From the NCBI GenBank assembly GCA_947448955.1, contig CANFPU010000002.1, forward strand, positions 1-64,000: a DNA stretch of 64,000 nucleotides. Direction: 5' to 3'. Every line of letters begins with the position of its first letter. Position 1 is the stretch's first letter. The notes beneath the pieces were generated by a model, which worked only from the letters and a program-made list of their open reading frames with translations, searched no databases and was not told where the DNA came from. This DNA is from Burkholderiales bacterium (GTDB taxonomy: Bacteria > Pseudomonadota > Gammaproteobacteria > Burkholderiales > Burkholderiaceae_C). This document shows, in pieces, positions 6,096-30,666 of the stretch. The position numbers were made by a program, and so were the translations under genes.

Positions 6096-6194
6096 AGGCC
6101 ATCGGCCTGAGCATTCGGCGCCCGACCCAGGGGCCAGGCCGGCCATCGGGTGGGCGAATAGACAACAGCCGCGGCTTTGGACATTTTCCTGTCA

Positions 6195-6222
6195 TTGAAA
6201 CTTCGCTAGCCTCAAGCAAAAT
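6195..6222 (+). promoter_or_regulatory. Possible sigma70-type promoter for the tonB/TBDR unit
   Basis: TTGAAA - 16 bp - CAAAAT in an AT-rich stretch upstream of 6602; weak -10. Confidence 0.3.
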
Positions 6223-6350
6223 ACAACCTTTACCAAGATTTGAAGTCGATTCACGGATCGGTCAGTTTTCTAGGCACTGGCCGGGCATGGGCGGCTCAAT
6301 TCGGGATGCCAGCGCGAAGAACTTGCTGGCCGCCAACCTTTTAGGCAATG

Positions 6351-6369
6351 CTCAAGACCCGGTCTTGAG
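6351..6369. promoter_or_regulatory. 19-bp perfect palindrome CTCAAGACC-C-GGTCTTGAG in the tonB leader region
   Basis: Direct reading; 9-bp arms around one base. Confidence 0.6.
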
Positions 6370-6601
6370 GCATCTTTCGTGCGCTGCTGGCGCTGCAATG
6401 CTTTGAGTACAACCGCTGTTCCCACCATGGCCGGATCCTTAGGCAAGTCCTTGAGCCAACCCTCAAGCCCGAGCGGCAGGGTTGAGGCGGTGGCCTGCCC
6501 GGGATGTGGCTGGCGGATACGTGGCCGGCAAACCCGCGACCGGCACACCCGCGACCGGCAAATGGCAACTTGGCTGACGGTGCGCTGAGCGGAGACACCG
6601 A

Positions 6602-11541: not shown

Positions 11542-12315
11542 TCAATACCAATACTCCAGATGCGGGAACGGATTTCTATTGGTATGTTTTCTATAATTAA
11601 AATGCACCACGAATGAAATCCTTCTGTCAGCTTTTTTCTTGACGTCGAACGGTAACACGACGTGCGGCATGAAGCTGTCGAAGAGTATCATGTTACCAGC
11701 ATCGTATGGGATTTTTTGACGATTTTTGACCGACTTCGCTGTATAGCCGTCAGCTTTGTAAAAATTATCCAGCTGGTCTGCCAAGTAGCGCTCTTGCCAG
11801 ATGTCGAGATCGCCGCCACGGTTTTTTTCAAACTGCGCTGTACGTTTGATTGAAATGACGCAGGAATAAGCCCTGGTTCGATCGTTAAAAATACTTTCAG
11901 GATATTGCAGAAGACCTTCGGTGTCAGTATGTATGTTATACAGTCGCCAACTTTGAAGCTGCAGGTTGAATCCGGCCATCAAAAAGTATTTCTTGTCACG
12001 CGGCACCACCGGCAGTGCGCCGGACTTGAGGCCGGAAAGATCCAGAATGAGACTGGCAGCCGCCTCGATGATCTCCTTGATCTCAGGAAACTCTTTGAGC
12101 AAATACTTGTTGTGCTTGTCGGCAAACCGATAATAGCTCTCATTCAAGCCGGCCTCGATCATTCCATAATAGGCCGCCAACTGGCCATATTGTGGCTCGA
12201 CATCTGAGCCGAAGATCTCCAGATTGTCGAAGATCTTTTTTTCCCAGCGCCGGCAAAGCGCAGCGCTTAGAAATTCTTTTTTAACCAAATACTGATTCGT
12301 GAATAATTTTTTCAT
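11542..12315 (-). CDS. Putative 2-oxoglutarate/Fe(II)-dependent oxygenase
   Basis: 257 aa; NIHTDTEG (HxD), DSFMPHVVLPF distal His, followed by RRISFVVHFNYR; AT-richer than flanks. Confidence 0.65.
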   Translation of the reverse strand: MKKLFTNQYLVKKEFLSAALCRRWEKKIFDNLEIFGSDVEPQYGQLAAYYGMIEAGLNESYYRFADKHNKYLLKEFPEIKEIIEAAASLILDLSGLKSGALPVVPRDKKYFLMAGFNLQLQSWRLYNIHTDTEGLLQYPESIFNDRTRAYSCVISIKRTAQFEKNRGGDLDIWQERYLADQLDNFYKADGYTAKSVKNRQKIPYDAGNMILFDSFMPHVVLPFDVKKKADRRISFVVHFNYRKHTNRNPFPHLEYWY

Positions 12316-12611
12316 CTGAGTTGCCGGTGAAATTCACAGCCACACATCACGCCTGAATGACGGGGCGGATCCAACCCACCACACCGCTTCGATCCATCTG
12401 CACCTGACCGCCAACAGTGCGCCATGTCAAGCCGACTTTGGATCGTCGCACAAGCAGTCAGTCAAGGGAAGACCCTCGGTCAAAGGCCAAAGCTTTGCAG
12501 CAGGTGGGACGGCCAGCAAAAAGGTGTAATATCATGCAGCGTCAAACCATTTTGGCCATGGCGCCCAGCCGCCGCCTCAGAATTTCATCAGCACCTTAAA
12601 GTTTTAGTCCC

Positions 12612-13034
12612 ATGCCGAATGCCAAACAAAAATTATTAGCGCACTTGAGTCAAGACGTTTACTGCCGTCTCGGGGTGTCGCCAGTGCATGGTATCGGGGT
12701 TTTTGCAATTCGCGCAATTGCTAAAGGCGTCAACCCGCTGAGATCACGCTTGAAGTTTGACGAAGTCAGTTTTTCGCACAAAGAAATCAAAACCTTGCCG
12801 CGCAGCGTGCGCAAGGAAATAGAGATTTTCTGCTACTACGACGATGACCGCGTGCTGGTCCCTTCGATCGGACTCAATTCAATGCATATGGCGGTGTATC
12901 TCAATCATTCAAAAACCCCTTCCGTTCAGTATCAGAAGAACGGCCAACTGATCACGCTACGCGCCATCAAATCAGGCGAGGAATTGATGATGGATTACGA
13001 CGTCAACTTCGGCGCCACCCATATTTTCGACTGA
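12612..13034 (+). CDS. Small SET-domain protein (putative protein-lysine methyltransferase)
   Basis: 140 aa; GIGVFAIRAIAKG, YLNHSKTPSV (NHS), SGEELMMDYD motifs of the SET fold. Confidence 0.75.
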   Translation: MPNAKQKLLAHLSQDVYCRLGVSPVHGIGVFAIRAIAKGVNPLRSRLKFDEVSFSHKEIKTLPRSVRKEIEIFCYYDDDRVLVPSIGLNSMHMAVYLNHSKTPSVQYQKNGQLITLRAIKSGEELMMDYDVNFGATHIFD

Positions 13035-13047
13035 AACCGGCACCTCG

Positions 13048-13926
13048 TCAGTCGATTGATGGGCGGGAAATCTGGTTCCACTGCGATGGCTCGAAGTCAG
13101 TATGCAGTGGCGAACTGGGGTCGCGCGCCAAAGGATGCTCAGGGTCGGTCATCGCGATGCCATAGATCGGCTCCAGGTCTGTCACCAACAATGACTTGTA
13201 ACCATAGTCACCGACCGGGCCAAGATTGTAATATTTGTAGCCATGGCGCGCCGCCCAGCGCGCGGCCAGCACACAGGCATAGATGCCCGGCGAGCGCTTC
13301 TTGTAGTCGATATTCCATTGACAGAAACTGCCGTAAACCTGGTCGCGCTCGGGCAACAACATCGAGACATCGGTGAGGATCAAATCACCGTTGGCGGCAT
13401 GCACTTGAAGGATCAGAACGTCGAGCTTTCGAATATAGTCGACAAATCCATCGACTTCCATGGCATGGATGTCGTAGGCATTGAAGTGTTCAGCGCCAAT
13501 TTGTAAAATGTATTCGACCGTGATTTCCCTGCCCGGCACGACTTTCTCTGAAACCTCGAAAGACCGGAACAGCTTGTCAAGTTCGCGAATTTTTCGCGCC
13601 CGCCACGGATCGGTCCAGAAATCCTCGCCAGCCACATTGGCCAGCCCGTAGTGGTCATTGATCGGCACCCCGAAATTTCCATCCGGTGGCAGCGCATAAA
13701 CAATAAAGGGTTTGCGCGCAGATGCCAGCATATCTGGTGTCACGTCAATATAAGGACAGAGCGCGTCCCAGCGGCTGGTGTAGTACCTGATCTCCTCGTG
13801 AAAGCTCTCAACACAAAGATTTTCATCAGTCCAACTCTGGTGGGCCAACGCCCGTTTCACGGGCTCATTCGACGCGCAGACCGCCGGTTCGAAAAAATCT
13901 GACGGCAAAGCTGCATCGGTTCTCAT
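13048..13926 (-). CDS. Putative ATE-C/GNAT-like acyl- or aminoacyl-transferase
   Basis: 292 aa; QWNIDYKKRSPGIYACVLAARWAARHGYKYYNLGPVGDYGYKSLLVTDLEPIYG resembles the C-terminal motif of arginyl/leucyl-tRNA-protein transferases (GxYxxx...GxxYxYLG...YK...EPxY). Confidence 0.5.
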   Translation of the reverse strand: MRTDAALPSDFFEPAVCASNEPVKRALAHQSWTDENLCVESFHEEIRYYTSRWDALCPYIDVTPDMLASARKPFIVYALPPDGNFGVPINDHYGLANVAGEDFWTDPWRARKIRELDKLFRSFEVSEKVVPGREITVEYILQIGAEHFNAYDIHAMEVDGFVDYIRKLDVLILQVHAANGDLILTDVSMLLPERDQVYGSFCQWNIDYKKRSPGIYACVLAARWAARHGYKYYNLGPVGDYGYKSLLVTDLEPIYGIAMTDPEHPLARDPSSPLHTDFEPSQWNQISRPSID

Positions 13927-14474
13927 GTCGATTTGCCTTCCGGCCCAGCCGCGAGTTGGAGTGGTTGCAGATCGAAGTAGTACTCATCGACCTTGAAGTT
14001 CTTGCGCAAAAAGCTGGGGTCAACCCGCGCCAGTCGTTTCAGTTCGGCCGCCATCAGACCGAAATGCGCCGACGCTTCGCTGGCTTCATGCTGCAACTGG
14101 CGCTGGTATTCCGGCATCAACGGGCAATCCACGTCGAACAGAAAACCGCCGGTTTTCGGATTGAAAGATAGCGGATACAACTGGCAGCTGAACGGCTTGT
14201 CGTCGCCCAAACGACAACCCGCATCGCCAAGGTTTTGACAACGGCTCTCAATGCACAAACTGCCGTGCTTTTTCTTCTCCGCCGCGGTCAAGGTGATTTC
14301 GAGCGGGGGATAGCCCGCATCGACATGACAGCATCCTCGGCATTCGGCGCAGTGATCAAAAAGCACTGGATGCTCCTGCGCTTGCATCGCGGCAGACGAT
14401 GCCGGGAGAGGCGCGATATGAGGGCAAACAGTGCTGATGTCTGCCTGGTGTTTGCCTGTCCAGCATGCGAGCAA
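13923..14474 (-). CDS. YkgJ-type cysteine-cluster protein (putative Zn/Fe-S binding)
   Basis: HCAECRGCCH...CIESRCQNLGDAGCRLGDDKPFSCQLYPLSF...DVDCPL; alternative start near 14387; ATGA overlap with the 13048-13926 gene. Confidence 0.7.
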   Translation of the reverse strand: MLACWTGKHQADISTVCPHIAPLPASSAAMQAQEHPVLFDHCAECRGCCHVDAGYPPLEITLTAAEKKKHGSLCIESRCQNLGDAGCRLGDDKPFSCQLYPLSFNPKTGGFLFDVDCPLMPEYQRQLQHEASEASAHFGLMAAELKRLARVDPSFLRKNFKVDEYYFDLQPLQLAAGPEGKST

Positions 14475-14611
14475 ATTTTCTTGGGCTTCGATGGGTCGAT
14501 TTCGCCGAGAACCCGCGAAGTTTACTCATTTTTCAACAATTTTCGTGATTTTACCCAATGAGTAGGCGGCAAACAGTCACCGCGTGAATGGACAAATGAC
14601 CGCCTGCCTGA

Positions 14612-14827
14612 GCGCGTTGTCGCCAGGCACCAGACAGTCCGCGTTTGCTTGGCTGGCGGGCTCAAGTGCTTGCCCGCAAGCATGCGGGCAGATCCTTGGC
14701 TTCGCCGCAGCGCGCCAAGGCGCGTTGTCGCCAGGCACCAGACAGTCCGCGTTTGCTTGGCTGGCGGGCTCAAGTGCTTGCCCGCAAGCATGCGGGCAGA
14801 TCCTTCGCCAGGCACCAGACAGTCCGC
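14612..14827. repeat. 86-bp direct repeat (two identical copies, 108-bp period) plus a third partial copy
   Basis: 14612-14697 and 14720-14805 read as identical; 14806-14827 repeats cgccaggcaccagacagtccgc; each full copy contains hairpin TGCCCGC-aagcat-GCGGGCA. Confidence 0.9.
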
Positions 14828-14842
14828 AGGGACTGTCTGGTG
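14813..14842. terminator. Strong hairpin at the 3' end of the minus-strand permease operon
   Basis: CACCAGACAGTCC-gcag-GGACTGTCTGGTG, perfect 13-bp stem, 7 bp past the stop codon at 14850; no obvious U tract. Confidence 0.45.
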
Positions 14843-14849
14843 TCCGGGC

Positions 14850-15803
14850 TCAGCGCTCGCCTTGGCGGTAGGGTTTCATCAGGGCTTGCGGGTAGGCGGC
14901 GCGGCGCGCCACCAGCACCAACGCGACGATCGCCATCGCGTACGGCAGCGCCAGGTAGAGCTGGTATGGCGGCACGAAACCCAACCAAGCCTGCGCCGCT
15001 TCAGCCGCACCGCTGGCTTGCTGCAGGCGCAACTGCAGCGCGTCAAAGAAGGCGAACAACAGTGCGCCCAACAGCGCTTTGCCGGGCCGCCAAGACGCGA
15101 ACACCACCAGCGCCACACAAACCCAACCGCGGCCGTTGACCATGTTGAAAAAGAACGCGTTGAAGGCCGACAGCGTCAGAAAGGCGCCTGCCACGCCCAT
15201 CAGCGCCGATCCTGCGATCACCGCACCAGCGCGCAAACGCAGCACATTCAGGCCTTGGCCCTCGGCGGCAGCGGGGTTCTCGCCCACCATGCGCAGCGCC
15301 AATCCGAGCGGCGTTCGGTAGAGCCCCCAGGCCAATGCGGGGACCATCAACAGGGCCATCAAGGTCATCGGCGTCTGCGCGCCAATGACCGGTATCGGCA
15401 ACCAGTCCATCGGCGCAAAGGGCTGGATCTTCGGCGGGCTGTCGACCTTGGGAAAACTGACCCGGTAGGCATAGCTTGCCAGGCTGGTGGCCAGCAGCGT
15501 GATGCCCAGACCCGAGACATGCTGCGACAAGGTCAGCGTGACCGTGAGCAGCGCATGCAGCGCACCAAAAGCCGCCCCGGCTGCAGCCGCTGCCAGTACC
15601 CCGCCCCATAACCCAGCGCCGTGGTAGGCGGCGAACCAGCCGGCAAAAGCACCTGCCACCATGATGCCCTCGATGCCCAGGTTGAGCACCCCGGCGCGCT
15701 CACACAGCAACACGCCCAGCGTGCCCAGGATCAGCGGCGTCGCAGTGCGCAGCACCGAAACCCAGAACGGCGCGGCCAGCAACAGATCGAGCACCTCGCC
15801 CAT
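14850..15803 (-). CDS. ABC transporter permease (BMP/nucleoside-type)
   Basis: 317 aa; TPLILGTLGVLLCERAGVLNLGIEGIMVAGAFAG. Confidence 0.92.
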   Translation of the reverse strand: MGEVLDLLLAAPFWVSVLRTATPLILGTLGVLLCERAGVLNLGIEGIMVAGAFAGWFAAYHGAGLWGGVLAAAAAGAAFGALHALLTVTLTLSQHVSGLGITLLATSLASYAYRVSFPKVDSPPKIQPFAPMDWLPIPVIGAQTPMTLMALLMVPALAWGLYRTPLGLALRMVGENPAAAEGQGLNVLRLRAGAVIAGSALMGVAGAFLTLSAFNAFFFNMVNGRGWVCVALVVFASWRPGKALLGALLFAFFDALQLRLQQASGAAEAAQAWLGFVPPYQLYLALPYAMAIVALVLVARRAAYPQALMKPYRQGER

Positions 15804-29749: not shown

Positions 29750-30666
29750 GTCGAAACTCCCAATTCCATAGGTGCGCCTTTGATGGCGCGCTGAGGTGAG
29801 CAAGTGGCCACCAAGATGGCCAGCGTCAGTGCGTAAGGCACTGCATTGAACAGGTAATAGCCCCCGCTGATGCCCACCGATTGCAGGGCCGGACCGATCG
29901 CACCGGCACCACCGAACAGCAGCGCCGCGCCCAGGCAGCGCCAGGGACTCCAGCGCGCGAAGATCACCAGTGCGACCGCGATCAGTCCCTGGCCACTGGA
30001 CAAGCCTTCGTTCCAGCTTCCAGGGTAGTAGAGCGACAGTGATGCGCCGCCCAGTCCCGCGATGAAGCCCCCAGCGGTGGTGGCGGCAATGCGGACGCCG
30101 TTGACCGAGTAACCCAGCGCACGGGCGGCATCGCTGCTGTCACCCGCCATGCGCACCACCAAGCCCCAACGGGTGTTGGCCAGGCCCCAAGCCAACAAAC
30201 CCGCCAGCGCGACACCGACCGGGAACAGCGCGTTGATCGCGAGCGCGCTCTGCACGCCGGGTGAAGCAGCCCAGGCCCCCAGTGCGATCGACGGGATCTG
30301 TGGCGCCTGCGGCTGGATCAGCGGCTTGCCAAGGTAGAAGGCCAGGCCGGCGCCGAGCAGCATCAACGCAATGCCGGTGGCGATGTCCGAGACCCGCTTC
30401 AGCGAGCACAGCAAGCCGTGCATCAGCGCCAACGCAGCGCCACTCAAACCCGCCAGCAGCACACCGACCCAGGGAGAGCCGCTGAGATAAGCACCACCGA
30501 AACCAGCCATCGCCGAGAACACCAGTACGCCCTCTAACCCCAGATTGATACGGCCGGATTTTTCGGTCAGGCATTCGCCCAGGCTGACAAACAGGAAAGG
30601 TGTGCCCACCCGCACCGCGCCGCCGACGATGGCCAACAACAGATCGAGCCACAGGTCGGCGTTCAC
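29746..30666 (-). CDS. ABC transporter permease (BMP/nucleoside-type)
   Basis: Longer ORF to 30882; GTG start at 30666 coupled to the upstream stop; LTEKSGRINLGLEGVLVFSAMAGF. Confidence 0.88.
   Translation of the reverse strand: MNADLWLDLLLAIVGGAVRVGTPFLFVSLGECLTEKSGRINLGLEGVLVFSAMAGFGGAYLSGSPWVGVLLAGLSGAALALMHGLLCSLKRVSDIATGIALMLLGAGLAFYLGKPLIQPQAPQIPSIALGAWAASPGVQSALAINALFPVGVALAGLLAWGLANTRWGLVVRMAGDSSDAARALGYSVNGVRIAATTAGGFIAGLGGASLSLYYPGSWNEGLSSGQGLIAVALVIFARWSPWRCLGAALLFGGAGAIGPALQSVGISGGYYLFNAVPYALTLAILVATCSPQRAIKGAPMELGVST

Follow-up and report, generated by a model that had tools for sequence, protein, structure and literature searches.

Four adjacent genes in a Burkholderiales genome appear to encode a 2-oxoglutarate/Fe(II) oxygenase (OXY), a SET-domain protein (SET), a GNAT-fold transferase (GNAT), and a cysteine-cluster protein (CYS). 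Do these genes work together, and if so, on what? They lie in a 64,000-nt stretch of DNA, which we refer to as the window, between an ALDH gene and a nucleoside-type ABC permease operon. The original prediction took them for a horizontally acquired set of modifying enzymes. Here, we delimit the set, follow it across genomes, and then weigh what its products may do.

Organization and boundaries of the cassette

All four open reading frames are real (Table 1), and OXY, SET, and GNAT proved to lie at the positions and on the strands originally assigned to them. For CYS, which had been placed at 13923-14474, the reading frame and strand stand but the start does not. Homology in every relative opens at [M/V/L]LFDHC, with products of 146-147 aa, so the start of the window CYS is most likely the GTG at 14366, replacing 14474. 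The ATGA overlap reported between the last two genes is genuine and is retained by most relatives, and the motifs cited for each of the four proteins are all present and invariant across relatives.

Table 1. Features of the cassette in the window
Feature	Position (nt)	Strand	Description
OXY	11542-12315	(-)	predicted 2-oxoglutarate/Fe(II) oxygenase, 257 aa; accessory gene, present in 8 of 11 cassettes
OXY/SET divergent intergenic region	12316-12611	.	probably contains both promoters; no conserved small ORF in an eight-locus alignment
SET	12612-13034	(+)	predicted minimal SET-domain methyltransferase, 140 aa
GNAT	13048-13926	(-)	predicted GNAT-fold transferase, C-terminal half FemAB/ATE-like, 292 aa
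CYS	13923-14366	(-)	predicted CxxCxxCC/YkgJ-like cysteine-cluster protein, 147 aa; 4-nt overlap with GNAT
Region upstream of the CYS-GNAT operon	14367-14556	(-)	conserved; probable outer limit of the cassette

The cassette is about 2.8 kb long. Between the window and two loci in unrelated contexts (L010 and L057), nucleotide homology is confined to the stretch from 11542 to 14542-14556. The internal spacing is altered in locus L008, in which the OXY/SET intergenic region is shortened to 125 bp and the gap between GNAT and SET is 361 bp (6142-6502), compared with 3-19 bp at the other loci measured. As had been noted, the cassette is richer in AT than its surroundings, with a GC content of 0.515 vs 0.66-0.67 in the flanks and a GC3 of 0.56-0.66 vs 0.81-0.87 in neighboring genes. 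Of nine loci measured, seven have a cassette GC content of 0.52-0.53, whereas L008 has 0.57 and the low-GC L009 has 0.42; the value is always below that of the flanks. No structured RNA or tRNA was detected near the cassette. A RiPP precursor was considered and rejected, as the intergenic regions lack a conserved small ORF.

Distribution, genomic contexts, and selection

A search with GNAT against 84,980 species genomes yielded seven loci, all in metagenome-assembled genomes of Burkholderiales/Betaproteobacteria. Three more (G889, locus L057; G941, L069; G1134, L070) came from genus and family searches in a second genome set, which also re-found two others. In all, the carriers are 11 genomes, the window and 10 further Burkholderiales; judging from isolate names, they appear to be freshwater bacteria. 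The cassette is rare: samples of 150 members of the family, 368 of the class, and 398 of the phylum contained none, and only four of 401 genomes in a larger family sample carry it. Within the genus, three of 21 species are carriers.

In all 11 genomes, the CYS-GNAT tandem is followed by a convergent SET, with constant order and orientation, while OXY adjoins SET, divergently oriented, in eight. A genome-wide search with an OXY profile matched six carriers, which served as positive controls, and was silent in three genomes of a single lineage. Because OXY is missing from these three genomes altogether, we regard it as an add-on: the cassette has a three-gene core, CYS-GNAT-SET, and OXY is optional. 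Homologues that never co-occur across genomes would have pointed to a chance juxtaposition of four unrelated genes; clearly, they do the opposite, with the three core genes together in 11 of 11 genomes. We found no point in support of chance, and an arrangement conserved in 11 genomes and at eight sites excludes it.

The eight sites comprise one shared by the window and L004, one shared by L005, L006, and L007, and one each for L057, L010, L008, L009, L069, and L070. The flanking pairs are ALDH and the ABC permease at the window site; TauD and a potassium transporter at L010; MmeI and TANGO2 at L008; YcaO and a solute-binding protein at L069; and, at the remaining sites, acyl-CoA dehydrogenase and a TRAP transporter or MmgE/PrpD, molybdopterin dehydrogenase and a hydrolase, CoA-transferase and a LON-domain protein, and PAP2 and HlyD/AcrB. 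These neighbors belong to metabolism, transport, or restriction and are unrelated from context to context. The same gene order at unrelated chromosomal sites shows that the four genes work as one unit. Purifying selection acts on each of the four, with dN/dS values of 0.05-0.17 wherever dS is unsaturated, and together with the scatter of sites this means that the cassette is useful to its hosts. The gene trees are largely congruent, with groups formed by the window and L004, L010 and L057, L005-L007, and L008 and L009.

Altogether, constant order, changing surroundings, purifying selection, and low GC bear out the proposal that these modifying enzymes were acquired horizontally as a set: the cassette is a functional unit of sparse distribution that has moved horizontally. 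At the site common to the window and L004, the cassette has diverged about as much as the adjoining genes, so acquisition there was not very recent. We found no mobility mechanism for the cassette, and a clean empty site was not obtained, since relatives with the permease operon do not have the ALDH of the window beside it. A larger operon with ALDH, the permease, TauD, or YcaO was rejected, as each occurs in one context only.

Two of the contexts contain further genes of note. In L069 (6196-8460), from the three-gene carrier G941, a YcaO-OsmC gene lies beyond SET and is not conserved elsewhere. In L008 (1509-4508), an MmeI-type restriction-modification enzyme and a DUF6236 gene adjoin the cassette.

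Predicted activities of the four proteins

The SET assignment in the original prediction is upheld: the window protein passes the Pfam SET cut-off (29.7 bits vs 22.4), and the motifs HGIGVFA, NHS, EEL, and DYD are invariant, including the NHS and EEL..DY pair on which the call was based. By sequence, SET is a predicted minimal SET-domain methyltransferase, under purifying selection (dN/dS 0.06-0.10). In a profile search of the PDB, the best match was the KMT2C SET domain (9.8e-6), and the matches include vSET (0.077) and BurB (0.98). The cassette protein resembles vSET and BurB in being a short, bare SET domain with NHS and EEL..DY; however, its PDB matches to them are weak. BurB methylates free methionine and thus provides a Burkholderiales precedent for a small-molecule substrate (PMC12542666), but no conserved neighbor of the cassette points to the synthesis of DMSP or malleicyprol. 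A small-molecule substrate for the cassette SET would lengthen the very short list, represented by BurB, of non-protein SET substrates.

OXY was called a 2-oxoglutarate oxygenase, and the family profiles agree across its members: Pfam WelO5 matches seven of seven (best 1.8e-5) and 2OG-FeII_Oxy_3 four of seven (best 4.6e-5). The window protein falls below the curated cut-offs (WelO5, 19.2 bits vs 27). In an alignment of seven members, H129-x-D131, H218, and R232 are invariant and correspond to the iron triad and distal arginine, a pattern shared with the WelO5 and 2OG-FeII_Oxy_3 groups. In WelO5-type halogenases, an HxG/A iron site leaves room for chloride. In contrast, all OXY members have HTD at 129-131, which excludes a WelO5-type halogenase site, and OXY is expected to be a hydroxylase or oxidase. 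The predicted structure is poor (pLDDT 47.5), and its best fold match is OkaE (E 0.014). With WelO5 and OkaE as relatives, OXY leans weakly toward small-molecule oxygenases over protein hydroxylases. Among PADLOC components, OXY matched only a generic CRISPR-associated 2OG model (1.3e-6) and, weakly, a type IIG model, so it was not placed in a known anti-phage system.

CYS contains CAxCxxCC and five further cysteines, and all nine are invariant in seven diverse members. Pfam CxxCxxCC (PF03692) matches all eight CYS members below an E-value of 0.1 (best 5.7e-4), with the window protein under the Pfam cut-off (17 bits vs 23). A PF03692-like cysteine motif in FliB holds a [4Fe-4S] cluster (PMC8598068), and by analogy CYS probably binds a metal or an Fe-S cluster. 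Like YkgJ and FliB, CYS has an N-terminal CxxCxxCC followed by conserved cysteines. It differs from them in its sub-threshold score, its translational coupling to GNAT, and the lack of a lysine-methylase context. In the arginyltransferase ATE1, the GNAT-fold transferase comes with a [4Fe-4S] domain that is sensitive to oxygen and bears CxxC and CC motifs (PMC9884297). The parallel to the CYS-GNAT pair is suggestive and not evidence of membership, as the defining ATE features are lacking.

GNAT had been described as an ATE/GNAT-like transferase. The GNAT fold stands: Acetyltransf_6 (PF13480) is the only Pfam family above its cut-off (24 bits vs 22) and matches seven of eight members; the motif SPGI...YNLGPV.DY.YK is invariant across relatives. 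The ATE-type, tRNA-dependent part is not established. ATE_C, seen in six of eight members, scores below its cut-off in the window (18.3 bits vs 25), the NCBIfam arginyltransferase model scores 11.9 against a cut-off of 170, ATE_N matched none of the eight members, and an hhalign comparison with the genome's own Bpt was not significant. That Bpt is a separate gene, at C67, and scores 143.9 by comparison; GNAT was thus rejected as the genome's N-degron transferase. Moreover, GNAT carries a net charge of -13 to -24 in all members, vs +6 for Bpt. Most tRNA-binding proteins are not so acidic, which counts against tRNA binding.

The structural comparison leans the other way. The GNAT model is poor (pLDDT 53, pTM 0.55), with values of about 65-92 in most blocks of residues 100-235. 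Its PDB fold matches at E<=0.001 number 14, every one of them an MprF/L-PGS domain or ATE1; next come FemX and the streptothricin aminoacyl-tRNA-dependent enzymes, and ordinary GNATs rank lower. GNAT shares the PF13480/ATE_C signature of the GNAT-fold aminoacyl-tRNA-dependent transferases (MprF/aaPGS, ATE1/Bpt, FemX, and the PacB/VlmA/Orf11 type), some of which act in natural-product pathways (PMC12945691), and the MprF/ATE1/FemX class supplies the best fold matches by E-value for its modeled core. It departs from these transferases in its ATE_C score, its missing ATE_N, its acidity, the separate canonical Bpt, and the lack of a linked biosynthetic cluster. From this low-confidence model, GNAT appears to be only remotely ATE-like, with its best matches among aminoacyl-tRNA-dependent transferases (MprF, ATE1, and FemX).

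Proposed pathway and alternatives

We favor a self-contained intracellular modification pathway. CYS and GNAT would cooperate, CYS being either the source of a cluster or a partner subunit. GNAT would attach an aminoacyl group, more likely than one derived from acyl-CoA, to an intracellular acceptor; SET may then methylate the same acceptor, and OXY, where present, may hydroxylate it. The product, made or decorated in the cell by such a short, dedicated pathway, would most likely be a small molecule derived from an amino acid or else a short peptide tag. We place it inside the cell, with a small product or tag, because no transporter or exporter, regulator, or precursor peptide gene is conserved with the cassette; nor is a synthetase. 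As a complete account, an autonomous unit in which CYS-GNAT aminoacylates an acceptor that SET and OXY turn into a small product or tag is put forward tentatively, and the arrangement of the cassette as three transcription units rather than one biosynthetic operon counts against it. We consider a narrower idea quite doubtful: that a tRNA-dependent GNAT works with an Fe-S protein encoded apart from it, the two forming a split version of ATE1 under redox control, and that a dedicated SET and, optionally, a 2OG hydroxylase modify the same acceptor. If GNAT/CYS does use aminoacyl-tRNA, bacteria would have in this pair a small-scale, split analogue of Fe-S-controlled ATE1.

The acceptor could instead be a host protein, with GNAT/CYS aminoacylating or acylating it, SET methylating a lysine, and OXY hydroxylating a side chain as a regulatory or protective modification. 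Protein lysines are the usual substrates of SET domains, and the SET profile favors KMT2 and vSET over BurB. The fusion of a GNAT fold and a [4Fe-4S] domain in ATE1, which CYS-GNAT might reproduce in split form, also fits this reading (PMC9884297), as does the lack of a conserved exporter or resistance gene. But no target protein is linked to or conserved with the cassette, the CYS-GNAT pair is without an ATE_N domain, and OXY is, weakly, closer to WelO5 and OkaE. We judge a host-protein acceptor somewhat unlikely; the small-molecule or tag reading is slightly ahead of it because of the small-molecule relatives of OXY and the BurB precedent, both weak indications. A serious rival concerns the donor: GNAT may be an acyl-CoA- or acyl-ACP-dependent N-acyltransferase of the PF13480 type, so that the product of the cassette would be a small N-acyl molecule, methylated and hydroxylated, whose synthesis needs no tRNA. 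The sole Pfam family above cut-off and the highly negative charge of GNAT argue for such an enzyme, which we nevertheless think unlikely to be the answer, given that the fold and sequence neighbors of GNAT are mostly tRNA-dependent transferases and that the cassette has no conserved association with an acyl-CoA ligase or ACP.

A selfish or defensive islet, anti-phage or built around a toxin-antitoxin-like GNAT and kept by addiction, would account for the patchy, mobile, AT-richer cassette and for the restriction enzyme beside it in L008. This seems very improbable, as SET, GNAT, and CYS match no PADLOC model and seven of the eight contexts are not defense-like. Known GNAT toxins are about 160-180 aa and come with a small DNA-binding antitoxin, a format absent here. 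A carnitine-type route, with SET producing trimethyllysine followed by a 2OG hydroxylase and ALDH, was dropped, since neither the ALDH of the window nor the TauD of L010 is conserved.

Iyer et al. 2010 (PMC2922099) describe compact bacterial neighborhoods that pair peptide ligation with 2OG oxygenases and methylases, as predicted tRNA-dependent or AAtRS-linked non-ribosomal peptide operons. Along with the GNAT-fold tRNA-dependent enzymes that serve natural-product pathways (PMC12945691), these are the nearest kind to the cassette; however, the cassette has no AAtRS paralogue, CDPS, or exporter, the term "SET domain" is absent from the text of Iyer et al., and no cysteine-cluster partner was seen in the sections considered. 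Searches of the open-access literature turned up nothing relevant on this gene combination. As far as our searches show, no single described system has these parts, and the cassette is real, sparse, and previously undescribed. Thus, the original view of an unrecognized unit of modifying enzymes holds, while its tRNA-dependent, ATE-type component has not been established. The cassette offers a well-bounded, tractable unit of protein- or peptide-modifying enzyme superfamilies not known to work together.

Viral and plasmid relatives, and repeats in the adjoining DNA

Relatives of GNAT and OXY were not found in viral contigs, OXY was not found in phage records, and GNAT, CYS, and OXY relatives were not found in plasmids. 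Viruses and plasmids do have SET relatives, but over the domain these share only about 27-37% identity. Many IMG/VR viral contigs (L011-L022) have genes for small SET-domain proteins, 27-33% identical to that of the cassette, with none of the other three cassette genes nearby. Phage or plasmid cargo was therefore rejected as an explanation of the cassette.

The DNA that separates the cassette from the ABC permease operon in the window contains an 89-bp direct repeat (14612-14808), with two 99% identical copies 108 bp apart. A third, partial copy of 23 bp (14805-14847) has an 18-bp inverted repeat at its end. No locus from another genome contained the 23-nt unit, and the close relative L004 has only a similar stretch of 43 bp. 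Within 31 kb of the same contig, there are three paralogous nucleoside/BMP-type ABC permease genes (40-876, 14853-15803, and 29806-30648).
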